Source of the DNA: a virus
IMG/VR virus record: IMGVR_UViG_3300046559_000446
Location: 62,001-126,000 of that record
Strand: one strand, 5' to 3'
Length of the DNA: 64,000 nt
In this document: one piece after another, positions 5,106 through 47,352 of the stretch
Position numbering within the stretch: position 1 is the stretch's first letter
How the letters are laid out: each line of letters opens with the position of its first letter
The notes under the pieces: model-generated
The model's database searches: none
Told to the model about the DNA's origin: nothing
What the model saw: only the letters and a program-made list of their open reading frames with translations
Program-made: the position numbers and the translations under genes

Positions 5106-5756
5106 TCAGACCGGTTGACGAAAAGCGACGATGCGGCGGATCGACACCATGCCATAGCCGACATTGTGCCGGTGGTTGCCCGACAGCAGCAGGATCGAGC
5201 TAGGATAGACTTTGGCGACGACGCCGATGTGATGCGGCAGGACAGCGATCGCGCCGGGCTTGGGCGCGCTGGGGCGGCCATAGCGGGCATAATCGACGGC
5301 GGCGAGCGACCCTAGGCGGGAATAGCCGGCCTCGCGCAGCCACAGACCCACGGAGGCCGCGCACCAGGGGCCATTGAAGCCGGTGAAGTTGCCGCCGCCG
5401 ATATAACGCTCCGCGACGTGCAGGAGGCGCGTATCGCCGCTCAGGGACGCCGTGGGCGTGTAGAAGCGAAAGCCGAATAGGCTGAAGCCCTGATCGGGTT
5501 CAGGGGCCACCGCCGCCGCCGCGCGCGCATAGACGCGGCGCTGATAGTGATGGTGGTGATGATGCGCGACAGGGCGCCAACGATGATACACGCGGCGAGG
5601 CTTCAAGCTTTGGAACGATCGCTCTTGCGCCTCCATGCCGAAAATGCGCCGGATGTTGAAATTTTGACTGGACGTTTGCGGCGGCGGGTCCACACTAGCA
5701 AATGCCGGCGAGGAACACGCCACGAGTAGAGCCGTGACGGCGAGCAGCTTTCGCAT
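5106..5756 (-). CDS. Exported CHAP/NlpC-P60-like cysteine peptidase domain protein
   Basis: 216 aa from ATG 5756 (AAAGGA upstream). The first 20 residues (MRKLLAVTALLVACSSPAFA) form a signal peptide with an AFA cleavage site. A low-complexity region includes six consecutive His (residues 65-70). The C-terminal part reads like a CHAP-type amidase: GPWCAASVGLWL with Cys132, then PKPGAIAVLPHHIGVV (His175/176) and GNHRHNVGYG. These give the Cys-His-Asn arrangement of peptidoglycan amidohydrolases. A periplasmic wall-modifying role is inferred; since a GH19 endolysin is encoded elsewhere, this is probably not the main lysin. Confidence 0.75.
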   Translation of the reverse strand: MRKLLAVTALLVACSSPAFASVDPPPQTSSQNFNIRRIFGMEAQERSFQSLKPRRVYHRWRPVAHHHHHHYQRRVYARAAAAVAPEPDQGFSLFGFRFYTPTASLSGDTRLLHVAERYIGGGNFTGFNGPWCAASVGLWLREAGYSRLGSLAAVDYARYGRPSAPKPGAIAVLPHHIGVVAKVYPSSILLLSGNHRHNVGYGMVSIRRIVAFRQPV

Positions 5757-5775
5757 CTTGCATCCTTTCTGGACA

Positions 5776-5811
5776 TAAAAAGAGCGCGCCCTGCGCGAAC
5801 AGGACGCGCTC
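5776..5811 (-). terminator. Intrinsic terminator after the 120-aa exported protein gene
   Basis: On the - strand the arms GAGCGCGTCCTG and CAGGGCGCGCTC pair around TTCGCG and are followed directly by five T. It lies 25 bases after the stop of 5836-6198 and just before the peptidase gene, so that gene needs its own promoter or read-through. Confidence 0.8.
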
Positions 5812-5835
5812 AATTACTCAACTAGGACGTGACGA

Positions 5836-6198
5836 TCAGTGACCGGCGACGCCGCCGCCAACCGCGATCACGCTCGATCCGCCGCTGGTGGTCGAACCGG
5901 CAAGGCCATTGCCGGAAGACGCAGCGAGGGTCGAAGAGGTCGAGGACGCCGTTCCGGCGCCGCCGCCACCCGCGATGGCCGGGCCGAAGAAGCCGCCGAC
6001 AGCGACGCCCCCGCCGCCCGCAACGCCGCTCGCAGAGGCGGTCGTGCCGCCAATGGCCGAAGCATGACCCAGCGAACCCGTCAGGGTGCTGGAGTGAGTG
6101 CTGGTGATGACGGTGCCGCCACCCACGCCGAAGTCGAGGGCGAAAGCCGGGGCCGCAAGCATCGACAGGCCGGCGGCGAGAACAAAGATCTTCTTCAT
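5836..6198 (-). CDS. Exported Gly/Ser/Ala-rich protein
   Basis: 120 aa from ATG 6198 (GAGGAA ten bases upstream). Residues 1-20 (MKKIFVLAAGLSMLAAPAFA) are a signal peptide. The mature part is almost only Gly, Ala, Ser, Thr and Val with no Cys, in runs such as GVAGGGGVAVGGFFGP, resembling surface or biofilm-type low-complexity proteins. Followed by an intrinsic terminator. One of several exported proteins in this - strand block; function unknown. Confidence 0.65.
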   Translation of the reverse strand: MKKIFVLAAGLSMLAAPAFALDFGVGGGTVITSTHSSTLTGSLGHASAIGGTTASASGVAGGGGVAVGGFFGPAIAGGGGAGTASSTSSTLAASSGNGLAGSTTSGGSSVIAVGGGVAGH

Positions 6199-6445
6199 GC
6201 TGTAATTCCTCACACAGTGTGTTGCCAGGGAAGCCGCCCTGGCGCGGATATCGAATTAATCGGCGGGTCTAGCAGCGGGATCGAACCGACACACCCGTCG
6301 CGGACAACTTACGTTGCAGCGAGAATAGAACCATCTCTTGTTGCCCACCCCCGGCCTTGTCGAGGTAAGAGCTTGCCCGCGCTTCGTACCTTACTCGCGG
6401 GTTCATCTGGCCCGCCGATCAACTACCCCTTGCGGGATTTCAAAA

Positions 6446-6493
6446 CCACTGACCGCCCTCCGAAACCGCTTAAGTGACAAGTTCGGCCAGTGG
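6446..6493. repeat. Hairpin A preceding structured repeat copy 1
   Basis: CCACTG (6446-6451) pairs with CAGTGG (6488-6493), and inside it CCGAA (6460-6464) with TTCGG (6482-6486). It stands directly before structured repeat copy 1, as hairpin B does before copy 2. Confidence 0.4.
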
Positions 6494-6496
6494 CTT

Positions 6497-6567
6497 GCTT
6501 GCTTTCGTGGCTGGATCCATTTGGAGCAAACCCAGAACGCCCCGCTCTCCACGGGGGACGCAAGATC
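6497..6567. repeat. Structured repeat, copy 1 (71 bp)
   Basis: Shares its first 16 bases (GCTTGCTTTCGTGGCT) and last 14 bases (GGGGACGCAAGATC) exactly with copy 2, while the middle differs. CTTGC near one end pairs with GCAAG near the other; inside are a CTGG/CCAG stem and a CCCCG/CGGGG hairpin with a 7-base loop, a three-way junction in either strand. The pairing is preserved between copies although the sequence is not. Confidence 0.5.
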
Positions 6568-16656: not shown

Positions 16657-16817
16657 ACGACGGCGACATGCACTGGTATCGGTATGTCCCCTGGGCGCTG
16701 GTGGAGGCCTATCAGGCGCTCGGCTGGGTGCTGGAAGGCGACATGGGGCCGGTCATGCGCGTCTACCGCGCCATCATGCGCTGGGCGGGCCAGGGCGAAC
16801 CCGTGGAGCCGAAATGA
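16653..16817 (+). CDS. Small 54-aa aromatic-rich protein
   Basis: ATG 16653 within ATGA; stop overlaps the methyltransferase ATG at 16814. Rich in Trp, Tyr and Met (MHWYRYVPWALVEAYQALGW), predicted amphipathic. Its last residues (GEPVEPK) resemble the end of the upstream 55-aa protein (KSVEPK), which also preserves an RBS-like GTGGAG for the next start. Function unknown. Confidence 0.5.
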   Translation: MNDGDMHWYRYVPWALVEAYQALGWVLEGDMGPVMRVYRAIMRWAGQGEPVEPK

Positions 16818-17818
16818 GATATTTGAGCGTCGCGAGCGGGATCGAGGGCGCCACGGTCGCCTGGGGGCCGCTCGGCTGGGAGCCGGTGGCCTTTGCCGAG
16901 ATCAATCCGGCGGCGACCGCGATCCTGACGCGCCACTATCCAAAAGTGCCGAACTTTGGCGACATGACCCGGCTGTTCACGCCGGCGCTGGGGCCGGTCG
17001 ATCTGCTTGTCGGCGGGACACCATGCCAGGCCTTTTCCGTTGCCGGCGTCCGCCGGGGCCTCGATGACGCGCGCGGCAACCTGGCCCTCGCATTTGTGGA
17101 GTTAGCGCATGAACTCGCCCGAAAAAACGGCCTCCGGAATTGCCTGTGGGAAAACGTCCCCGGCGTCCTCTCAATGCGAGACAACGCCTTTGGCTGTTTC
17201 CTGGGAGGCCTTGTCGGCGGCGACGCCATCGTTCTGCCAGGAGGCGGAAGGTGGCCCGATCAAGGTATGGCTTCCGGTCCCAGGGGACGCCTTTGCTGGC
17301 GTGTGCTCGACGCTCAACATTTCGGCCTCGCCCAACGACGCCGTCGCCTGTTCGTTGTCGTCGATTTTGGAGGTGGGGCCGATCCCGCTGCAGTTTTATT
17401 TGAGCGCGCAGGTCTGCATAAACATCCTGCGCAAGCGCAAGATGCTCCCTTTCCTGCTGTACCGGGCGCTAATACACCAGGCGCTCAGGATGGGGAGCAA
17501 CCCTTCACTCTCGCCATCAGGGGGCGCAAGGACGGCGCGCAGATAGAATGGCGGCAGGATGGCCTGGCCAATGTGCTGCTGACGCCCAGCGGGGGCCGGG
17601 CCGGCATAGGCGTCGGCGCTATTTGTGTTGACGATACATTGCGGCGGTTCACGCCGACCGAGGCCGAGCGGCTGATGGGCTTTCCTGACGGTTATACCGG
17701 CGGCCAGGCCGATTCGGATCGATACCGGCAGCTTGGCAACTCATTTCCGATCCCCGTATTACGCTGGATCGGACGGCGCTTTGAAAATAATTTTGAAAAA
17801 ATGCAAAAAGGTGTTTGA
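16814..17818 (+). CDS. C5-cytosine DNA methyltransferase
   Basis: 334 aa. Motif I LSVASGIEGATVAW, motif II-like EINPAA, motif IV GTPCQAFSVAG with nucleophile Cys71, motif VI WENV (Glu113), motif VIII region QRRRR, and motif X GNSFPIPV near the end. The target-recognition region lies about residues 195-275, so specificity cannot be read. Phage C5 methylases usually shield phage DNA from host restriction. No cognate endonuclease is adjacent. It is the last gene before a family promoter. Confidence 0.95.
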   Translation: MRYLSVASGIEGATVAWGPLGWEPVAFAEINPAATAILTRHYPKVPNFGDMTRLFTPALGPVDLLVGGTPCQAFSVAGVRRGLDDARGNLALAFVELAHELARKNGLRNCLWENVPGVLSMRDNAFGCFLGGLVGGDAIVLPGGGRWPDQGMASGPRGRLCWRVLDAQHFGLAQRRRRLFVVVDFGGGADPAAVLFERAGLHKHPAQAQDAPFPAVPGANTPGAQDGEQPFTLAIRGRKDGAQIEWRQDGLANVLLTPSGGRAGIGVGAICVDDTLRRFTPTEAERLMGFPDGYTGGQADSDRYRQLGNSFPIPVLRWIGRRFENNFEKMQKGV

Positions 17819-32216: not shown

Positions 32217-32398
32217 AGAACACTTTTGAGATCAAGCTGGGCCTCCATGTTCACGGCTCCGACGACTGGGAGCCGATGAATTACTCCAACTATTCCTCCT
32301 GCGTTCACGCCTGGCGCGCCGTCGATCCCGACTGGGATCCCCATTTTGCCGAGTTTTCATTCGAGATCGCGGAGTTTAACGGGGTGCTGTTCGGATGA
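32213..32398 (+). CDS. Hypothetical 61-aa protein
   Basis: ATGA overlap with neighbours. FEIKLGLHVHGSDDWEPMN, and acidic with Trp; no motif. Its stop overlaps the TerL start. Confidence 0.5.
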   Translation: MKNTFEIKLGLHVHGSDDWEPMNYSNYSSCVHAWRAVDPDWDPHFAEFSFEIAEFNGVLFG

Positions 32399-34029
32399 CG
32401 TCCATCAATCTTCAAAAGGTCAATCCGCAGGATGTCCTCGACCGCATGGACAAGGAGATGTGCGAGCGGTCCCTGCACGAGTTCGTCAAGCGGGCCTGGA
32501 AAGAGGTCGAGCCGGGCCAGCCCATGCTCGACAACTGGCACCTGCCGTTCATCTGTGAACATTTGGAGGCGATCACCGACGGCGCCCAGGTCGATGGCAA
32601 GCCCTACAACCGTCTCCTGATCAACATTCCTCCCGGCGGCATGAAATCCCTGCTGCTCAATGTGTTTTGGCCGGCCTGGGAATGGGGGCCTGCCGCCATG
32701 CCCCACATGCGCTATCTCTGCGCGTCCCATAACATCGACCTGGTCGAGCGCGACAGCATTCGCATGCGCCGGCTGGTCACCACCGCCTGGTATCAGAAGC
32801 ACTGGGGCGACCTGGTCGAACTGACCGGCGACCAGAACTCCAAGACGGTGTTCGAAAACACCCGCTCCGGATGGCGCAGGGCGGTCGCGGCGGGAGCGGA
32901 TACCGGTCACCGGGCCGACCGCGTCCTGATCGACGACGCTCTGAGCGTCAAGAACGCCAACAGCGACAGCACCCGCGAGAGCGTCAACCTGTGGTTCAGG
33001 GAATCGGTGCCGACCCGCCTCAATTCGCCGCGCAAGAGCGCCATCGTGGTGATCATGCAGCGGCTGCACGAGGCCGATCTGTCCGGAATGATCCTCGACA
33101 AGAAGCTCGGCTACGATCACATCATGATCCCGATGCGCTACGATCCGGACCGCGCCCACCCCACCATGCTCGGCTACAAAGACCCCCGCACCATCCCCGG
33201 CGAGCTTTATTTCCCGACCCGTTTTCCCCTCGACGTGGTCGAACGCGAAGAGCGGATCATGGGGCCGTTCGCCACCGCCGGCCAAATGCAGCAGGCCCCA
33301 GTCCCGCGAGGAGGCGGCGTCATCAAGGACGCCGACTGGATCCTGTGGGACAGGCCGGAATTTCCGGCGCTCGACTTTATTATCGCCTCCATCGACACCG
33401 CCTACGGTCTGAAGCAGGAGAACGACCCCAGCGCCATGACGGTGTGGGGGGTGTTTTCAGGCGACACCCGCAACCAGGCCACCAGGCTGGTGGATCGCTA
33501 CGGTCACCCGAAGGAAATGCCTGAAGGCGGCGCCTCCACTCACCTCGACGCCGCGCCGCGCGTCATTTTGATGTACGCCTGGACCGAGCGCCTCAGTCTT
33601 TCCGACCTGGTCGCCAAGGTGGCCCTCCATTGCAAGAAGTTGAAGGTTGACCGCCTGCTGGTCGAGGCCAAGGCGAGCGGCATATCGGTCGCGCAGGAGA
33701 TGCGCCGTCTTTACGGACATGAGCCATGGGCGGTTCACCTGATCAATCCAGGCAACCAGGATAAACTTGCTCGGCTGTACAGTGTTCAGCCGCTGTTTGC
33801 GGAAGGCATGGTCTACGCTCCAGACAAGGAATGGGCGGAAATGGTGATCAGGCAAGTGGCTTCCTTCCCCAAGGCGCTGCATGACGATCTTACCGACACC
33901 ACATCACAGGCGATTCGCCACCTGCGCGACTGCGGATTGCTGACCCGGTCCGACGAAAGGTTGGCGGAAATGAACGAGGAAGTCCAGTATGGCCGCACCA
34001 GGCCGCTGGAGCCGCTCTATCCAGGCTGA
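32395..34029 (+). CDS. terL: Terminase large subunit
   Basis: 544 aa, ATG 32395. ATPase: adenine-side LDNWHLPFICEHL, Walker A-like NIPPGGMKS (79-85), Walker B VLIDDAL (about 176-181, with Asp-Asp where Asp-Glu is usual). A helicase-like segment follows (SAIVVIMQRLHEADL). The nuclease half starts at IIASIDTAYG with a catalytic Asp and contains KVDRLLVEAKASG and a late Asp in KALHDDLTDT, the RNase H-like acidic triad. This motor packages DNA into proheads through the portal. Confidence 0.95.
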   Translation: MTSINLQKVNPQDVLDRMDKEMCERSLHEFVKRAWKEVEPGQPMLDNWHLPFICEHLEAITDGAQVDGKPYNRLLINIPPGGMKSLLLNVFWPAWEWGPAAMPHMRYLCASHNIDLVERDSIRMRRLVTTAWYQKHWGDLVELTGDQNSKTVFENTRSGWRRAVAAGADTGHRADRVLIDDALSVKNANSDSTRESVNLWFRESVPTRLNSPRKSAIVVIMQRLHEADLSGMILDKKLGYDHIMIPMRYDPDRAHPTMLGYKDPRTIPGELYFPTRFPLDVVEREERIMGPFATAGQMQQAPVPRGGGVIKDADWILWDRPEFPALDFIIASIDTAYGLKQENDPSAMTVWGVFSGDTRNQATRLVDRYGHPKEMPEGGASTHLDAAPRVILMYAWTERLSLSDLVAKVALHCKKLKVDRLLVEAKASGISVAQEMRRLYGHEPWAVHLINPGNQDKLARLYSVQPLFAEGMVYAPDKEWAEMVIRQVASFPKALHDDLTDTTSQAIRHLRDCGLLTRSDERLAEMNEEVQYGRTRPLEPLYPG

Positions 34030-34045
34030 AAAAGGGAGAAAAGTC

Positions 34046-34192
34046 ATGTTTTTTCGCAATAACCCCACGTCCGTGACGGAGAAGGCTCCGGAAAAGCCGA
34101 TTCCAGCCCCAAAAACCCCTGAAAAACACGAAAAACACGATGAAAAGACCGAAAAACACCCCCACCGCGACATGCACGAGAGCAAAAAATGA
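34046..34192 (+). CDS. Small Lys/His/Glu/Pro-rich peptide
   Basis: 48 aa, ATG 34046 with GGGAG upstream. Very low complexity with repeated EKP, EKHEK and EKHPH elements (PAPKTPEKHEKHDEKTEKHP). Possibly a metal- or DNA-binding tail-like peptide. Reading overlaps the next ATG. Confidence 0.5.
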   Translation: MFFRNNPTSVTEKAPEKPIPAPKTPEKHEKHDEKTEKHPHRDMHESKK

Positions 34193-34776
34193 CTAAAAAG
34201 ACCGAACATGAGCACCAGGTCCATAAGTCGAGCCGCATCAAACCCTCGATTCAGGCTGCTTTGGACGAAACGCACCCCACCGGGGGCGCTGAAGTGCTCC
34301 ACCATCACCCTTCCGTGGCCGGATCGCACCGCCGGCCCGGCGATTTCGACGTATTCGACCCCCAAGACCCCGGCATGCAGGGCATTCCGCTGGCCGGGCC
34401 TCCTTCTTACCTGTCGCCATCGACCGGCGACCTCCAAAGGAAGCTGGCGGAAGCTCCTCCTCTCTTAATGCCCGATCTTGAGCACGTCGCCGCCTTTGGC
34501 GAGGGCTTCACTCACATCGCCAGCGGCAATGAGGGCGTCACCGCGACCAATATTCATCCCAACCAGGTCCGCTTCATGGATTTCGGCGCCGCGCTTCTCC
34601 AATTGGAGCAGGGCCACCGCATTCAGCGCAAGGCGTGGAGCGGCAGATGGGTCGAGGCCCGCTTTCCCGACGGCGCGCCGGCGTGTCTTTACATGACGCT
34701 GGCCAACGGCGAAATGACCATCTGGACTATCTCCCAAGCTGACGTATTGGCCAGAGACTGGAGCATTGCGCCATGA
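34189..34776 (+). CDS. Tad2-like (DUF2829) protein with N-terminal extension
   Basis: 195 aa. The N-terminal 125 residues are His/Pro-rich and not recognised. Residues 130-195 carry the DUF2829 signature: MDFGAALLQLEQGHRIQRKAW, then SG.., a Met-containing strand, and TISQADVLARDWSI. DUF2829 is Thoeris anti-defence 2 (Tad2), which traps the gcADPR signals of Thoeris. Ligand binding is inferred from family knowledge. It is followed directly by a second Tad2-like gene. It lies in the late operon, so action would be late, or the protein may be packaged. Confidence 0.8.
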   Translation: MTKKTEHEHQVHKSSRIKPSIQAALDETHPTGGAEVLHHHPSVAGSHRRPGDFDVFDPQDPGMQGIPLAGPPSYLSPSTGDLQRKLAEAPPLLMPDLEHVAAFGEGFTHIASGNEGVTATNIHPNQVRFMDFGAALLQLEQGHRIQRKAWSGRWVEARFPDGAPACLYMTLANGEMTIWTISQADVLARDWSIAP

Positions 34777-35111
34777 CCGTAGTTGAGAACGACCGTATGA
34801 CGTCCATCAATCCCTACAGCATGGATTTTGGCACGGCCATCCTGCAAATGCGGGCCGGCTGCAAAGTCCAGCGCGAGGGCTGGAACGGCAAGGATATGTG
34901 GATCGCCCTGTCGGGCGTGGAGGGACCGCGCGTAGTCTACCACGAGCAGCTTTGGTCGAAGGTCGCCCGCGATTACGCCAAAACCCAGCCCGATGGGAGA
35001 GTTACCGTCCTGCCCTGCTTCATCATGAAGACGGCGACCGGCGAAATCCTGATGGGTTGGCTGGCGAGCCAATCCGACATGCTGGCCCAGGATTGGAGAG
35101 TTGTGCCGTGA
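34773..35111 (+). CDS. Tad2-like (DUF2829) protein
   Basis: 112 aa, ATGA overlap with the first copy. Domain residues 17-112: MDFGTAILQMRAGCKVQREGW, then NGKDMWIALSGVEG, VLPCFIMKTATGEILMGWL and SQSDMLAQDWRVV, the full Tad2 pattern including the conserved W and closing SQ.D(M/L)LA.DW. It is the more canonical of the two copies. An anti-Thoeris or general signal-sponge role is expected. See the paired upstream gene. Confidence 0.85.
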   Translation: MTVVENDRMTSINPYSMDFGTAILQMRAGCKVQREGWNGKDMWIALSGVEGPRVVYHEQLWSKVARDYAKTQPDGRVTVLPCFIMKTATGEILMGWLASQSDMLAQDWRVVP

Positions 35112-35299
35112 CCCCGTTCAGGCCCGAACCCATCAAGACGACCAAGCTATGGACCGGCGTCTGCCGCGACGGCCCGTGGAAAGGCCTGCCATTGACGGCG
35201 GGATCGCGCTTCGTCTGCGCCCCCGACGGCAATGAATACTGCAATGACGGGACCGGACACTGGAACTGGGTCGAGCTACACCACGAGGGCAAGAAATGA
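35108..35299 (+). CDS. Small protein related to the N-terminus of the next gene
   Basis: 63 aa from GTG 35108 (GTGA). The core GVCRDGPWKGLPL..GNEYCNDG..HWNWVELHHEGKK resembles the first 55 residues of 35296-35754, so this is a free copy of that small domain. Unknown function. Confidence 0.55.
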   Translation: MTPFRPEPIKTTKLWTGVCRDGPWKGLPLTAGSRFVCAPDGNEYCNDGTGHWNWVELHHEGKK

Positions 35300-35754
35300 G
35301 CAAAATCCTCAATGGCGTTTGCGTCGGCGGTCCCCTGAATGACCGGGGCCTGACCTGGGACAAGGACGTGAAAGTGCTGCTGGCGTCGAACAACGACGGC
35401 CACGCCGGCGAATACCACTATGACCACGCAGCCACCAACAAGTGGATCTGGCTTGACGAAGGCAAGGAACAAACCATGAGCAGAGCAGCCGAAGAGCAGA
35501 CCATACCCCGAATTACGCCCGAAATCATCGATAAGCGCATCGTGCGGGTGAAATACTATCAATTTCCCGACTCCACCGTCATGATCTGCGCCATCGAACT
35601 GACCAATGGCTACCATGTCATTGGCGAGGCCGGCTGCTCTTCTCCGCTCACTTTTGACGAAACCATCGCCAGGCGGATCTCCTTCGACGACGCCCGCCGC
35701 AAGATCTGGCCGCTGGAGGGCTACGTCCTCCGCAACGAACTGAAGGGGCTATGA
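35296..35754 (+). CDS. Gp49-like phage protein with a duplicated N-terminal domain
   Basis: 152 aa. Residues 70-150 match the phage Gp49-like family: RITPEIIDKRIVRVKYYQF.. TVMICAIELTNGYHVIGEAG then DDARRKIWPLEGYVLRNEL. The first ~55 residues repeat the small domain seen alone in 35108-35299. Gp49-like proteins are widespread in phage late regions; no biochemical function is established to my knowledge. Confidence 0.75.
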   Translation: MSKILNGVCVGGPLNDRGLTWDKDVKVLLASNNDGHAGEYHYDHAATNKWIWLDEGKEQTMSRAAEEQTIPRITPEIIDKRIVRVKYYQFPDSTVMICAIELTNGYHVIGEAGCSSPLTFDETIARRISFDDARRKIWPLEGYVLRNELKGL

Positions 35755-36122: not shown

Positions 36123-38657
36123 ATGCCATTGGTGCCGGGCTTGCCCCTGAACATCCGCCAGACCAATGGCGGCGCCCCGCCGGCCATTTCTCCGGGCGTC
36201 TCCATCCAGCATGACGTTCACGAGCCTCCCGGCGTCCCCGAAATGGACGACGCCGGCGCTGTCATCAAGATCGAGCATGCCGACGGCAGCGTCACTGTCT
36301 CGCTTGATGGCAAATCGCTGGTCGATAAGCCAGAGCAGAACACAGGCTGGTTCGCCAACCTGGCCGAAAAGCTTCCGGAAGACGATCTGAGCGGCATTGC
36401 CGACGATTTGCTGCGCGGGATCGACGAGGATCTGACCAGCCGCAACGACTGGATCGAAGAGCGCGCCCAGGGCATCAAGCTGCTCGGCCTCAAGATCGAG
36501 ATCCCCAATTTGCAGTCGGCGGCGGACGGCGCCCCGGTGGACGGCATGTCAAAAGTGCGGCATCCGCTGCTGCAGGAGGCGGTGCTCCGCTTTCAAGCCA
36601 ACTGCCGCTCCGAAATGCTGCCCACCGACGGGCCGATCAAGATCCGCGATGACGGCAGCAACTCCAATCTCCCTCGTGACGCACTGGCGACCGCCCTTGA
36701 AAAAGACCTCAATCATTATCTCACTGTCACTGCGACCGAATACTATCCCGACACCGACAAGATGTTCCTTCTGCTGGGCTTTGGCGGCACGGCATTCAAG
36801 AAAGTGTACAACTGCCCGCTGCGTAATCGGCCAGTTTCTGAATCGGTTGACGCCAACGACCTCATCGTCAACGACGCCGCCACCGACCTCGCCAACGCCA
36901 AGCGTGTTACCCATCGATCTATGATGCGGCCCTCGACGGTCAGGCGCATGCAGATAATCGGCGCCTATCGCGACATCGACCTCGATACGCCCAAGCCGCA
37001 GACGCTCGACGCTGCGCAGGAGGCGGCTAAAAACCAGCAAGGGATCCAGACCAACACCACGAGGCCCGACGACCGTGACCGCGAGATCTACGAGTGCTAT
37101 TGCGAACTCGATCTCAAAGGCTACGAGCACAAGTACAAAGGCAAGATTTCGGGCCTTGAGATCCCGTACCGGGTCACCATCGACCTCTCCAGCCGCAAAA
37201 TCCTCTCGGTCGTCAGAAACTACGATGAGGACACGAAGGAGCTTCCTGAAGCTAGAGAGACATTCGTCAAATATACCTACGTACCGGGCCTCGGCTTCTA
37301 CGATATCGGACTCCTTCATATATTGGGCAATACCACCAACGCTGTTACTGCTGCTTGGCGCGAGTTGCTGGACGCTGGAATGTTTAACAACTTTCCCGGC
37401 TTTCTCATGGCTGATACGGGAGCCAGACAGAACACGAATATCTTCCGCGTACCGCCGGGCGGCGGCGTCCTCGTCAAGACGGGCGGTCTTCCCATCAATC
37501 AGGCGATTATGCCACTTCCTTACCAGCCGCCGTCTCAAGCTCTGATGGCCCTGGTCGATAACATGGTGCAGACCGGCCAGCGCAGCGGCGGCACCGCCGA
37601 ACTGCCGGCCAACGAAGGCAAGGCCGAAATCCCCGTCGGCACCATCCTGGCGATGATCGAGCAGGCCCAGAAGGTGCTGAACAACGTCCACAAGCGCATG
37701 CACTCGGCGCAATCGCAGGAATTTCGCCTGCTGATACGCTGCTTCAAGGAGAACCCCAAGGCGTTCTGGCAGCGCAACAAGAAGCCGTCCGCGCCGTGGG
37801 ACGAGCAGAACTTCCGCGCCGCGCTCGATCAGGCCGACCTGACCCCGCAGGCCGATCCGAATACGTCGAGCCATGGCCAGCGCGTGATGAAGATCATGGC
37901 GCTCAAGCAGTTGCAGCAGCAAAACCCCAGTCTCTACGACCCCATCGCCATCGATACGGCGGCGCTGCAGGCGCTGGGCTGGAACAATCCGCAGCAATTC
38001 ATGGCGCCGCCGAGCGCCCAGGCCGCGCCTCCCCCGCAACTCATCCAGCAGCAGGCTGAGACGGCGGCGAAGACCCTCACCTCGCAGGCGGCGATGGTCA
38101 CCGCCCAGGCGCGGGCCAAGGAGGCCGGCGCCCGCGCCATGAACCTGATGGCGGAAGCCCAGACCATGGGCATGGACGAAACCGGCCAGATCCAGCAGGA
38201 CACGCCGGTCGATCAGCACCGCGCCGAATCGGAGCGCATCAAGGCCAACGCGCATGCGCAGCAGGCCGACACTCACCAATCCGTCATGCAGGCCAAGTCC
38301 CAGGCCGACCTGCTGAACGCCCAGACGCGGGCCAAGGAAATCCAATTGAAGCTGGGCGAACTGTCGATGAAGGATTCGCACCACGACGACGAGCAGCGCC
38401 TCAAGGCGAGGCAGAGCGCCGTCGATATGGCCAAGCAGGTCATGGACACCCGTGCCGAAGACCAGCGCACCGCCGCCGAGATCCATCACGATCACACCAT
38501 ACTGAGCCGCGAGCAGGAGCACGATCACGCGATCACCGAAAAGACCCACGCGCATGAGAAGGAATTGGAGGGCGTGAAGAAAGCGGCGGCTATCGCGGTC
38601 GCTAAAGCCAAACCGAAACCCAAGCCTGCAGCCGCCAAGCCAAAGGCCAAGAAATGA
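36123..38657 (+). CDS. Portal protein (P22-like)
   Basis: 844 aa, ATG 36123. The central region (about 120-560) reads like P22-type portals: KVRHPLLQEAVLRFQANCR, EYYPDTDKMFLLLGFGGTAF then KKVYNC.. , and NNFPGFLMADTGARQNTNI. The C-terminal ~200 residues form a long coiled-coil barrel-like tail, Ala/Gln/Lys-rich with many HAHEKE-type repeats and a basic KPKPKPAAAKPKAKK end. Portals form the dodecameric DNA gate. The order TerS-TerL-portal fits. Length is above P22 gp1 (725 aa) because of the tail. Confidence 0.85.
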   Translation: MPLVPGLPLNIRQTNGGAPPAISPGVSIQHDVHEPPGVPEMDDAGAVIKIEHADGSVTVSLDGKSLVDKPEQNTGWFANLAEKLPEDDLSGIADDLLRGIDEDLTSRNDWIEERAQGIKLLGLKIEIPNLQSAADGAPVDGMSKVRHPLLQEAVLRFQANCRSEMLPTDGPIKIRDDGSNSNLPRDALATALEKDLNHYLTVTATEYYPDTDKMFLLLGFGGTAFKKVYNCPLRNRPVSESVDANDLIVNDAATDLANAKRVTHRSMMRPSTVRRMQIIGAYRDIDLDTPKPQTLDAAQEAAKNQQGIQTNTTRPDDRDREIYECYCELDLKGYEHKYKGKISGLEIPYRVTIDLSSRKILSVVRNYDEDTKELPEARETFVKYTYVPGLGFYDIGLLHILGNTTNAVTAAWRELLDAGMFNNFPGFLMADTGARQNTNIFRVPPGGGVLVKTGGLPINQAIMPLPYQPPSQALMALVDNMVQTGQRSGGTAELPANEGKAEIPVGTILAMIEQAQKVLNNVHKRMHSAQSQEFRLLIRCFKENPKAFWQRNKKPSAPWDEQNFRAALDQADLTPQADPNTSSHGQRVMKIMALKQLQQQNPSLYDPIAIDTAALQALGWNNPQQFMAPPSAQAAPPPQLIQQQAETAAKTLTSQAAMVTAQARAKEAGARAMNLMAEAQTMGMDETGQIQQDTPVDQHRAESERIKANAHAQQADTHQSVMQAKSQADLLNAQTRAKEIQLKLGELSMKDSHHDDEQRLKARQSAVDMAKQVMDTRAEDQRTAAEIHHDHTILSREQEHDHAITEKTHAHEKELEGVKKAAAIAVAKAKPKPKPAAAKPKAKK

Positions 38658-40870
38658 ACGAGCGCGCGAAAGCCCTTGGCTTCGATCCGTCGCAGACGTG
38701 GTTTCACGGCTCAACTAAGGATCTGCCGGCTTTCGCCGCCAAGCGCGCTCCGCGCAGCGAGCAAATGGGCCTGGAAGGCGTTCACCTTGCGCAAAATCCG
38801 GATTTTGCCTCCCATTACGCCGAAGGGCCTGGCGGCAACGTCACGCCAGTTCATGTGCGCGGCAATATTCTCGACGCCACCCAGCTTATCCCCGAAGGCG
38901 GCGAGCATCACGCCATTCTCGATAAGCTGCTGAAGGGAACAGGCCGCAAGCCATACTGGAACTCTGATGAGCAGGGGCGTCGATTCGCCCCGCCGCTTCA
39001 GGGTCATATCGACGCCGTCAGCCCGCAAAAGGCCAAGCGCGTCATCCAGGAACACGGCTACGACGGCGTCAAATACGATGCTCGATACGGATCATTGCAG
39101 CCTGGAGGCCGCAGCGCGAGCATTTCAAACAAAAGCCCCGCAGTGGTGATGTTCGACCCATCGAATATCCGGGCCAGGACTGCACAATTCGACCCCCAGC
39201 AAGCAGGGAGCGCGGAACTAATGGCATCGAGAGGCGGTAAGGCGATCCACTCTGCGCTCCTGACGGCCAAGAGCCTTTATGACAAGCTGCCGCATGTCGT
39301 CGGCGGCGGGGCGCCGATGGCCAAGGGCGGCGCTGCGCTGGCGCCGATTCCCCAGATCATCATGCCGGGCGATCACCCGGCCCGCATCGACACCCGGCTG
39401 GCGACCGGGGCCAAGCCGCTCGATCTGGGGCCAGGGCCGCGCACCGTCAACATGGCTGCGTTGCGGGCGACGCCGGCGCTGTTCGACAAGAACGTCGATA
39501 TCCTGCGGCACTACCCGAATGTTTCGAAAAGGGCGGCGAAGCTGTCGAACCCGGATATGGCCGAGCATTTCATCAATCACGTCAAGGACAACCTGCTGTG
39601 GCTGCACGATCAGGTGCCCAACGAAACCCGGCAGCGGTCCAAATTGTGGTACGACGGCGCCAACAAGCTGGCCAAGGAGTGGGCGCAAAAATACGGCGTC
39701 TCGGAGGCGTCCGCCGCCGGCGCGCTGGCCGCGCTGTCGCCGCAGAAGGACTGGTTTCAGAACGTGTCGCTGGCCGAGCGCGTCCTGCATGCGATGAAGG
39801 GGCGCGGCAATAACGCATATCATGGTGAAACCTTTTCGCCTGAAATGGAGGGCACCTATCGCGGCCTGGACAAGCTGGCCACCGAGAAGAACGAGCCAAT
39901 CTTCCAGGCGATCAGGGGCAAGTCGCTGGGCGACATCGACGACATGAAGCACATTCCCGGCGACGAGCGCGCGGTCATGAAGGCGCTGTGGATCCGGATG
40001 CACGATCAGACCCACGGCGATCCCGGCTACAAGATCGCCACGCCGGAAGGTCATTTTGGCGAGGTCGCCCGGAACGCCGACGGATCGCCATCGAGGGCGG
40101 GCTGGGGTTCGCTGGGCGAAATCGGCAAGGCGGTGCAGGCCATCGAGAGCAATGGCGATCCGACCTTCATGAACCGCCTGATGGGCGAGCGCCACAAGGT
40201 TCGCAATTTCTACAATAACATCCTCGATCCCAACTCCCAGCACGGCGACGTCACCATCGACACCCATGCGGTCGCCGCCGGCCTGCTGCGCGCGCTGTCG
40301 GGCAATTCGCTTGAGGTGGCGCACAATTTCAGCAACTACGCCGGCAAGGGCGTTCCCGGCGCCGGCGGCTCCAACGCCACCGGCGTGAACGGAACCTATC
40401 CGCTCTACGCCGACGCCTATCGCCAAGCCGCCAAAGAGCGCGGTATACTGCCGCGCGAAATGCAATCGATTACGTGGGAGGCGATCAGAGGATTGTTCCC
40501 CGACACCTTCAAAACTGATAAAAACAACGCCCATATCGACAGCATCTGGAACGACTACAAGAACGGAAAGAAGGGAATCGACGATGTCCGCAAAGAAATC
40601 CACGACTTCGCGGGGGGCATCCGGCCACCGGAGTGGCACGACACCTCTGGAACGCCTGATGCACCGGTTCGGGGTGCCAGTGGACCGGGACTCGTACCTG
40701 GCCCTGGATCACGCGGGCCAGCCCCCCAAGGAATTATCGGCGGAACAGGAAATGGACCTCCCGGAGCACCTGCGCCGCAAGCACCCCGGCAGTCGGGGCT
40801 GATCCTGCCGCCAGGTTATGCCTGCGGCGGCATGATCGACAAAGCATTGGCCGCGACACGGCCCCGGTAA
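38654..40870 (+). CDS. Polyvalent virion protein: ART-like domain plus HhH-GPD-like domain
   Basis: 738 aa, ATGA overlap with the portal. Residues 15-180 resemble ART-PolyVal ADP-ribosyltransferases: QTWFHGSTKDLPAF, GLEGVHLAQNPDFASHYAEG, then HGYDGVKYDARYG and PAVVMFDPSNIRAR. Residues about 265-620 look like a HhH-GPD/DUF7178-type module: ASAAGALAALSPQKDWFQNV, and VTIDTHAVAAGLL with Asp536-Thr-His in the place of the glycosylase Asp. A Pro/Gly linker leads to YACGGMIDKAL. Polyvalent proteins are packaged and injected to modify host or DNA (family knowledge); role here is inferred. Confidence 0.65.
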   Translation: MNERAKALGFDPSQTWFHGSTKDLPAFAAKRAPRSEQMGLEGVHLAQNPDFASHYAEGPGGNVTPVHVRGNILDATQLIPEGGEHHAILDKLLKGTGRKPYWNSDEQGRRFAPPLQGHIDAVSPQKAKRVIQEHGYDGVKYDARYGSLQPGGRSASISNKSPAVVMFDPSNIRARTAQFDPQQAGSAELMASRGGKAIHSALLTAKSLYDKLPHVVGGGAPMAKGGAALAPIPQIIMPGDHPARIDTRLATGAKPLDLGPGPRTVNMAALRATPALFDKNVDILRHYPNVSKRAAKLSNPDMAEHFINHVKDNLLWLHDQVPNETRQRSKLWYDGANKLAKEWAQKYGVSEASAAGALAALSPQKDWFQNVSLAERVLHAMKGRGNNAYHGETFSPEMEGTYRGLDKLATEKNEPIFQAIRGKSLGDIDDMKHIPGDERAVMKALWIRMHDQTHGDPGYKIATPEGHFGEVARNADGSPSRAGWGSLGEIGKAVQAIESNGDPTFMNRLMGERHKVRNFYNNILDPNSQHGDVTIDTHAVAAGLLRALSGNSLEVAHNFSNYAGKGVPGAGGSNATGVNGTYPLYADAYRQAAKERGILPREMQSITWEAIRGLFPDTFKTDKNNAHIDSIWNDYKNGKKGIDDVRKEIHDFAGGIRPPEWHDTSGTPDAPVRGASGPGLVPGPGSRGPAPQGIIGGTGNGPPGAPAPQAPRQSGLILPPGYACGGMIDKALAATRPR

Positions 40871-46437: not shown

Positions 46438-47352
46438 ATGGCCGTCAATCTTAGCGCCATCAAAGACCTTCTGCTCCCCGGCCTCCGTGGGATCGAGGGC
46501 AAGTACGAGATGATCCCGTCTCAGTACGACAAGATCTTTACCAAGCACAACTCAAAGATGGCGCTGGAGCGCACGGCTGAGATGCGCTACCTGGGCCTCG
46601 CCGCCCTCAAGACTGAAGGCGGGCAGACCCAGTTCGACAACGGCGCCGGCGAGCGTTACGTCTACAACCAGGAGCACGTCGAGATTGGCCTGGGATATGC
46701 GATGACCCGCAAGGCCATCGACGACAACCTCTACAAGACCCAGTTCCATCCCTCCAACCTCGGCCTGATCGAATCCTTCCAGCAAACGAAGGAAATCTAC
46801 GGCGCCAACGTCCTGAATACGGCCCAGGCCTATAATCAGACAATCGGCGGCGACGGCAAGGCGCTCTGCGCGGTCGATCATCCCATCGACAGCGGCCTCG
46901 TCGGCAACACGCCGGCGGTGCAAGTCGATCTCGGTGAATCGACCCTGCTCAACGCCATGATCGGCGTCCGGACCAACTTCAAGGACCAGGCGGGTTTGAA
47001 AGTTTTCGCTCGCGCGCGGAAGCTTATCATCCCGCCGCAATTGGAACCGGTAGCAATTCGTCTTCTCAAGACAGAATTGCGGCCAGGCACGGCAGACAAC
47101 GACGTCAATGCCATCCTCTCGACTTCGGGTGGACTGTCTGAAAGCTTCATGGTCAATGACTTCTTGACCTCGCCCTTCGCCTGGTTCCTTCTCACAAATA
47201 TCGATGGTCTTTCCTTCATGGAAAGAATAAAGTTCGAAACGGATATGCAAGTCGATTTTGTGACCGATAACCTGCTCGTGAAAGGTTACGAGCGGTATTC
47301 GTTCGGTTACTACAACTGGCGAGCAGTCTACGGCAACTTCCCGACCTCGTAA
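46438..47352 (+). CDS. Major capsid protein
   Basis: 304 aa, ATG 46438 with AAGGAG upstream, a good site for high expression. The sequence has HK97-like features for gpT-type capsids: long E-loop-like N-terminal part (MIPSQYDKIFTKHNSK), YNQEHVEIGLGYAMTRKAI, and late VFARARKLIIPPQLEPVAI then TDMQVDFVTDNLLVKGYERY. The order scaffold-MCP fits. Forms the head shell. Confidence 0.85.
   Translation: MAVNLSAIKDLLLPGLRGIEGKYEMIPSQYDKIFTKHNSKMALERTAEMRYLGLAALKTEGGQTQFDNGAGERYVYNQEHVEIGLGYAMTRKAIDDNLYKTQFHPSNLGLIESFQQTKEIYGANVLNTAQAYNQTIGGDGKALCAVDHPIDSGLVGNTPAVQVDLGESTLLNAMIGVRTNFKDQAGLKVFARARKLIIPPQLEPVAIRLLKTELRPGTADNDVNAILSTSGGLSESFMVNDFLTSPFAWFLLTNIDGLSFMERIKFETDMQVDFVTDNLLVKGYERYSFGYYNWRAVYGNFPTS

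Follow-up and report, generated by a model that had tools for sequence, protein, structure and literature searches.

A likely counter-defence cassette of overlapping Tad2- and Acb4-family genes between the terminase and portal genes of a phage

A run of overlapping frames located in the packaging and structural region of a phage, from terL to the portal gene, is likely to constitute a counter-defence cassette. It comprises orf67, tadA, tadB, orf63 and acb4, in this order; tadB would encode a canonical Tad2 sponge, tadA a diverged partner and acb4 a sponge of the Acb4 family. Each family was already known singly. What appears to be new is the cassette, a Tad2 paralogue that seems to be devoid of its pocket, and the pairing and fusion of Tad2 and Acb4 genes.

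Results

Organization of the locus

The window analysed here is a stretch of 64,000 nucleotides (1-64000) corresponding to positions 62001-126000 of the IMG/VR record IMGVR_UViG_3300046559_000446. The complete record (138,254 bases) consists of two collinear phages, shifted by ~69 kb relative to each other and sharing ~84 % identity along most of the sequence, and its ends overlap by ~99 bases. The best explanation is a circular assembly of mixed origin in which two related ~69-kb phages were joined head to tail. Because the assembly is probably chimeric, the length of the record and its gene counts are about doubled. The junction of the two phages lies near 7.3 kb of the window, far from the Tad2 cassette, and a third Tad2 gene found in the record belongs to the sibling phage unit.

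The sequence-only reading had placed two tandem Tad2-like genes between terminase and portal. Both ORFs were indeed found there, on the + strand and joined by an ATGA overlap, with terL (PHROG 38) upstream and an SU10_portal gene downstream (Table 1). Both exceed the curated cut-off of PF11195, a profile check that this reading had called for. The unknown extension of 125 residues that it had noted on one copy is carried by tadA and is ~128 residues long. Four 4-nt start/stop overlaps (ATGA or GTGA; 34189-34192, 34773-34776, 35108-35111 and 35296-35299) join orf67, tadA, tadB, orf63 and acb4, suggesting that translation of these genes may be coupled. In L004, the sibling phage unit, a counterpart of orf67 (58.6 % identical) occurs at the equivalent position. 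Neither RNA families nor tRNAs were detected in the window and PADLOC returned no match.

Two other regions of the window were recorded. Directly 3' of the portal gene, a 738-aa protein (38654-40870) matches DUF7178 with 100 bits and shows a sub-threshold match to an ADP-ribosyltransferase (ART-PolyVal, 27.7 vs 31.2). At 16814-17818, a C-5 cytosine DNA methylase match was obtained in two stretches; the gene is possibly split or interrupted by an insert.

Table 1. Features of the terminase-portal region and of the probable major head protein gene (window coordinates)
Feature	Position	Strand	Basis or remark
terL, large terminase	32395..34029	+	PHROG 38 E 1.1e-77; upstream neighbour
orf67, short, lysine/histidine-rich	33989..34192	+	ORF; overlaps end of terL and start of tadA (ATGA)
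tadA, 195 aa, divergent Tad2-like with long N-terminal extension	34189..34776	+	PF11195 50.4 bits
tadA extension, residues 1-128	34189..34572	+	model pLDDT; start conserved
tadA Tad2-like domain, residues 129-195	34573..34773	+	WSGR-W in place of the WNGK loop; beta2-beta5 insert mostly absent
tadB, 112 aa, canonical long-insert Tad2 domain (WNGKDMWI...GWLASQSDMLAQDW)	34773..35111	+	PF11195 80.3 bits
orf63, GTG start, small domain	35108..35299	+	counterparts in phage group; profile match to Acb4 N-termini
acb4-like gene, 152 aa	35296..35754	+	PF13876 72.9 bits, cut-off 27
acb4 PF13876/Acb4 domain, residues 73-148	35512-35739	+	
acb4 additional beta domain, N-terminal (~residues 1-56)	35296-35475	+	
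portal, downstream neighbour	36123..38657	+	PF23899 (SU10_portal) 63 bits, PHROG 1216
probable major head protein, possible late trigger of TIR sensors	46438..47352	+	PHROG 371 E 1.4e-11

tadB matches canonical Tad2 proteins over the whole domain

Residues 17-111 of tadB match PF11195 with 80.3 bits (E 1.5e-22; curated cut-off 25), so that the likeness to Tad2 (SPO1, 8smf; ModTad2, 9eib; SptTad2, 8wjd; HgmTad2/AcrIIA7, 8kbi) extends across the whole domain. The closest solved relatives found by phmmer are SptTad2 (8wjd, E 8.6e-14) and HgmTad2/AcrIIA7 (E 3.7e-13). Alignments show a complete WNGKDM loop and an SQxDxLAxDW C-terminus, i.e. the full WNGK(D)M and SQ(S/T)D.LA.DW motifs of the family. 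From the loop strand to the conserved C-terminal W, tadB counts 52 residues, within the range of 35-65 seen in the family sample. In the PDB alignments the same segment measures 53 residues in SptTad2, 59 in HgmTad2 and 41 in both SPO1 Tad2 and ModTad2. The proximity to the first two values led us to group tadB with the long-insert Tad2 proteins, its insert being like that of SptTad2 in length.

According to a recent review, the gcADPR pocket of Tad2 is formed by the beta1-beta2 and beta3-beta4 loops, beta4 and helix alpha3, and binding of cyclic dinucleotides is tied to the insert between beta2 and beta5 (PMC12043709). By this description both sites are predicted in tadB. The Tad2 sponge is a tetramer that captures gcADPR/cADPR-type signals and blocks Thoeris. 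The protein is most likely a canonical Tad2 sponge, with ADP-ribose signals made by TIR (gcADPR/cADPR) as predicted ligand; possibly, it would also accept cyclic dinucleotides.

tadA has the Tad2 fold but a degenerate pocket region

The other Tad2-like gene, tadA, also matches PF11195 (residues 130-193, 50.4 bits, E 3.4e-13, against the same cut-off of 25). Its phmmer match to ModTad2 (9eib) is weak (E 5e-5) and falls in two separate segments. An AlphaFold monomer model, built from 20 sequences, is confident for the C-terminal domain (pLDDT about 85-95). All 23 Foldseek matches of this model with E <= 0.001 are Tad2/AcrIIA7 structures, the best having an E of 1e-6; with SPO1 Tad2 (8smg/8smf), the E is 1e-6 and the TM score 0.7-0.8 by target length. 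In the extension, pLDDT is mostly 42-71 per 10-residue block, the exception being a helix at 79-88. The start of the extension, KPSIQAALDE.HPTG, is conserved and is common to the fused gene of L004 described below. Searches of Pfam, PHROGs and NCBIfam found no known domain in the extension, and no match to tadA was found among isolated phages.

While tadA shares the predicted Tad2 fold, it differs from Tad2 by its ~128-residue extension, by the lack of the WNGK loop and of the insert, and by being a tandem paralogue. At the WNGK position we read WSGR in the window and in L010, and WEDG in L036. Between the loop strand and the conserved C-terminal W there are 20-22 residues, as compared to 35-65 in the family sample. 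In the alignment of sampled Tad2 domains, WNGK is 96-100 % conserved per position, a value that is inflated, as is the conservation of SQ(T/S)D, because the sample was fetched by the WNGK and SQ(T/S)D patterns. WNGK is present in all the characterised Tad2 sequences examined (SPO1, SptTad2, HgmTad2 and ModTad2). The QAD.LA.DW helix is kept in tadA.

By the pocket description of the review, tadA would be without much of the pocket; by descent and fold it belongs to the Tad2 family. Since the WNGK loop and ~20 pocket-side residues are gone, we regard a role as divergent partner or non-canonical binder as more likely for tadA than that of a second sponge. The sequence-only reading was right about the tandem and its Tad2 family, but its proposal that the copies might bind different signals is doubtful, tadA having no WNGK(G/D)M loop and a segment of 20-22 residues.

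The tandem pair probably arose by duplication

Six further IMG/VR contigs contain an identical tadA-tadB pair, and the pairs of L010 (88/97 % identity) and L036 (54/64 %) are diverged; the tandem is therefore not an assembly artefact. In two sibling groups, L004/L011-L014 and L015-L018, a single gene combines an extension of the tadA type with a domain of the tadB type, the latter being 83 and 76 % identical to tadB. Window tadA and L036 tadB share a linker, FG.GFT.I.S.NEGV..TN, of which L036 tadA has the start (FGEG). This distribution, together with the fused sibling genes, fits duplication of an ancestral gene composed of extension and Tad2 domain. In the Tad2 tree, the tadA sequences cluster next to the tadB/fused group but are set apart by a very long branch; this supports a duplication inside the phage group only weakly because the program warns of long-branch joining. 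We conclude that a tandem duplication probably gave rise to tadA, starting from an ancestral extension-Tad2 gene of the type still carried by the siblings. The dN/dS values of 0.10-0.36 for the tadA and tadB domains and for acb4 (0.15-0.35 for tadA) indicate purifying selection.

Another tandem Tad2 pair was noticed in L197 (6668-7282), a contig labelled Enterobacteriaceae bacterium B14; with 66 and 80 bits, both of its copies score as full Tad2 domains.

These data bear on two other views of tadA. The two copies could be independent sponges with different ligands, the tadA pocket being re-shaped for another, perhaps smaller, signal. This would agree with the purifying selection acting on tadA, with the conserved fold and QAD.LA.DW helix, with the diversity of ligands among known Tad2 proteins (gcADPR, His-ADPR, cyclic dinucleotides) and with the two full domains of the L197 tandem. 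We nevertheless consider it unlikely, as the beta1-beta2 loop, which lines the pocket (PMC12043709), is degenerate and varies among the three tadA sequences (WSGR, WSGR and WEDG), and as ~20 pocket-side residues are missing. The other view, that tadA is a degenerating remnant of the duplication retained solely for its extension or for translational coupling to tadB, seems to us decidedly improbable. The absence of the conserved loop and insert and the existence of siblings (L004/L011-L014, L015-L018) that manage without tadA, with one fused gene, would favour it, but the tadA frame is open, its domain is under purifying selection in three diverged phages and the tandem is kept at 54-64 % identity in L036. 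We favour tadA as an accessory subunit that bears the extension, may contact tadB and most likely would not act as an independent sponge.

acb4 belongs to the Acb4 family

The acb4 gene, missed by the sequence-only reading, matches PF13876 with 72.9 bits against a cut-off of 27, and a PF13876-family profile built in this work finds Acb4 (9e4w) with an E of 2e-9. The top Foldseek hits of its structural model are all 9e4w (E 6e-4, TM 0.65-0.73 by target length). This Pfam family corresponds to Acb4. The SPO1 member is a tetramer that sequesters 3'3'-cGAMP and protects the phage against CBASS, and 8/8 homologues tested bind 3'3'-cGAMP (PMC11722364). Like the phage studied here, SPO1 encodes both sponge types, Tad2 and Acb4 (PMC11722364). 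Through its membership of PF13876, acb4 brings the cassette to three sponge-family genes instead of two.

The window acb4 shares the family domain and the predicted fold with SPO1 Acb4 (9e4w) and with gp48 of coliphage N4. It differs by an extra N-terminal beta domain related to orf63, by replacement of several SPO1 pocket residues and by its inclusion in one overlapping run with Tad2 genes. The nucleobase and phosphate contacts of SPO1 Acb4 that were compared are K36, F48, E49, Y57, F62, N63, I66, T70 and K81. In the profile alignment F62 and I66 are kept, F48 is changed to Y, T70 is replaced, and K36, E49, Y57 and K81 become T, H, S and P, respectively. As the SPO1 pocket residues are only partly kept, the ligand of acb4 may differ from that of SPO1. 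On the strength of family and fold, acb4 is most likely an Acb4-family sponge, with CBASS cyclic dinucleotides as predicted ligands.

The orf63 product shows a weak relationship to the N-terminal part of the acb4 protein (profile against Acb4 N-termini, E 3e-7 to 1e-3), and counterparts 60-96 % identical to it adjoin the Tad2 genes, tandem or fused, of the phage group. The small beta domain concerned (GVC.DGP...) makes up orf63 (window 35108-35299) and is repeated as the N-terminal part of Acb4 (35296-35475). In L015 there are seemingly three copies of it (5609-5845, 6041-6500).

Tad2 and Acb4 genes are recurrent neighbours and are sometimes fused

The pairing was evaluated on a set of 105 Tad2 loci, made non-redundant at the level of 80 % identity and each having flanks of 2 kb or more; clustering at 60 % was discarded because the set was collapsed by single linkage. 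An Acb4-family gene is present in the flank of 18 of these 105 loci, always on the same strand. It lies at 1 kb or less in 17 of the 105, versus 3.8 +/- 1.7 expected under random placement in the same stretches. Both gene orders occur among the paired loci. The link is frequent and not obligatory, since ~83 % of the sampled Tad2 loci are without Acb4 nearby. No report of the pairing or fusion was found in the papers searched, which included the Acb4 preprint.

Single-ORF Acb4-Tad2 fusions were found in L094, L128 and L173, each above both Pfam cut-offs. Likewise, ORF47 of Pasteurella phage Pm86 (185 aa) contains Acb4 and Tad2 domains in one frame, above both cut-offs. The Acb4 part comes first in 4/4 fusions (L094 6629-7300, L128 6161-7291, L173 6713-7258 and L203 3989-4546). 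In the Tad2 tree, the L173 fusion is on a different branch from those of L094 and L128. INPHARED holds 60 records in which one place covers at least 80 % of the L173 fusion; the matches listed are mostly N4-like coliphages and Klebsiella phages. CU10EC, proposed by tblastn as a further fusion, was rejected: its Acb4 and Tad2 genes are distinct and have one other gene in between. Neighbouring 'Gp49 family' and DUF2829 genes were also seen in plasmid records (NZ_CP029555, NZ_CP017663), which are possibly phage-plasmids.

In coliphage N4 (L202 4920-5773, equivalent to N4 33632-34485), gp48 is a PF13876/Acb4 protein and gp49 a PF11195/Tad2 protein. Their genes overlap on one strand as in the window, but the order is reversed (Acb4-Tad2), there is a single Tad2 copy, and the pair lies beside the vRNAP gene, not between terL and portal. 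The N-terminal domain of gp49 (YIG...LRGW...YISWSP) also differs from that of the window. Panoptes is triggered by N4 gp48, which is necessary and sufficient for this, in keeping with the behaviour of a cyclic-nucleotide sponge (PMC12657230); gp49 is not mentioned in that paper. An N-terminal domain of ~75 residues, YIG.K...M....Y..LRGW..P..EGYLVEY...YISWSP..VFE.AY, is located ahead of the Tad2 domain in many proteins, as observed in L020, L023, L026, L027, L028 and N4 gp49. No Pfam family matched this YISWSP-type domain above cut-off in the proteins scanned.

The terL-portal interval and expected timing of expression

At several other loci, too, the Tad2 gene is situated at less than 7 kb from terL or portal and in the same orientation. 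MW202675, which is the closest annotated relative (portal 68 % and TerL 58 % identical), has no Tad2 or Acb4 gene in the terL-portal interval; other small genes and a dCTP deaminase/dUTPase are found there instead, which makes the interval look like an accessory slot. In N4, Pm86 and Huey, the Tad2-Acb4 pair or fusion is beside replication or lysis genes. The promoter scan identified no late promoter, promoter-like sites being no more numerous than in shuffles, and the terminator scan was uninformative. With an uninformative promoter scan, the presumed late timing of the cassette is a matter of position only.

That tadA, tadB and acb4 are structural or packaging accessory proteins merely sharing the Tad2 and Acb4 folds is very improbable: their location between terL and portal and the other Tad2 genes within 7 kb of terL or portal would agree with it, but the interval resembles an accessory slot (MW202675 has neither gene there), the pair or fusion adjoins replication or lysis genes in N4, Pm86 and Huey, and N4 Acb4 (gp48) has demonstrated sponge activity (PMC12657230).

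Discussion

Late expression had been regarded as odd for an anti-defence gene. This objection loses its force, because published triggers of Thoeris and SpbK are capsid and portal proteins: in Staphylococcus and Streptococcus, Thoeris responds to the major capsid protein (PMC12578639), and SpbK, a TIR protein, is activated by the phage portal (PMC12847820). Besides, tadA and tadB are not the only Tad2 genes near terminase or portal. Packaging of the proteins in the virion, which had been put forward as a way out, has no evidence in its favour and is unnecessary given such late triggers.

In the counter-defence cassette that we propose, tadB would sequester ADP-ribose signals from TIR enzymes and acb4 the cyclic dinucleotides of CBASS. 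Presumably produced alongside portal and capsid (genes starting at 36123 and 46438), the sponges would already be available at the time when defences that sense capsid or portal are activated. More speculatively, and with little likelihood in our judgement, tadA and tadB may form a mixed assembly, the pocket-less tadA anchoring tadB, and possibly Acb4, where capsid- or portal-sensing TIR enzymes act. If this were true, the sponge would be a localised, multi-signal one rather than a freely diffusing one.

If it is indeed a Tad2 naturally devoid of its pocket, the tadA-type domain would offer a means to examine whether sponges assemble into mixed complexes. The Tad2-Acb4 pairing offers a guilt-by-association route to anti-defence genes, here orf63, the YISWSP N-terminal domain and the tadA-type domain. 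It also leads to a prediction for N4, in which gp49 should be a working Tad2 beside the validated Acb4 gp48. Two sponge families that were described separately, one for TIR/Thoeris and the other for CBASS signals, are recurrent genomic partners and sometimes one protein, which suggests that phages often face both kinds of signal defence together.
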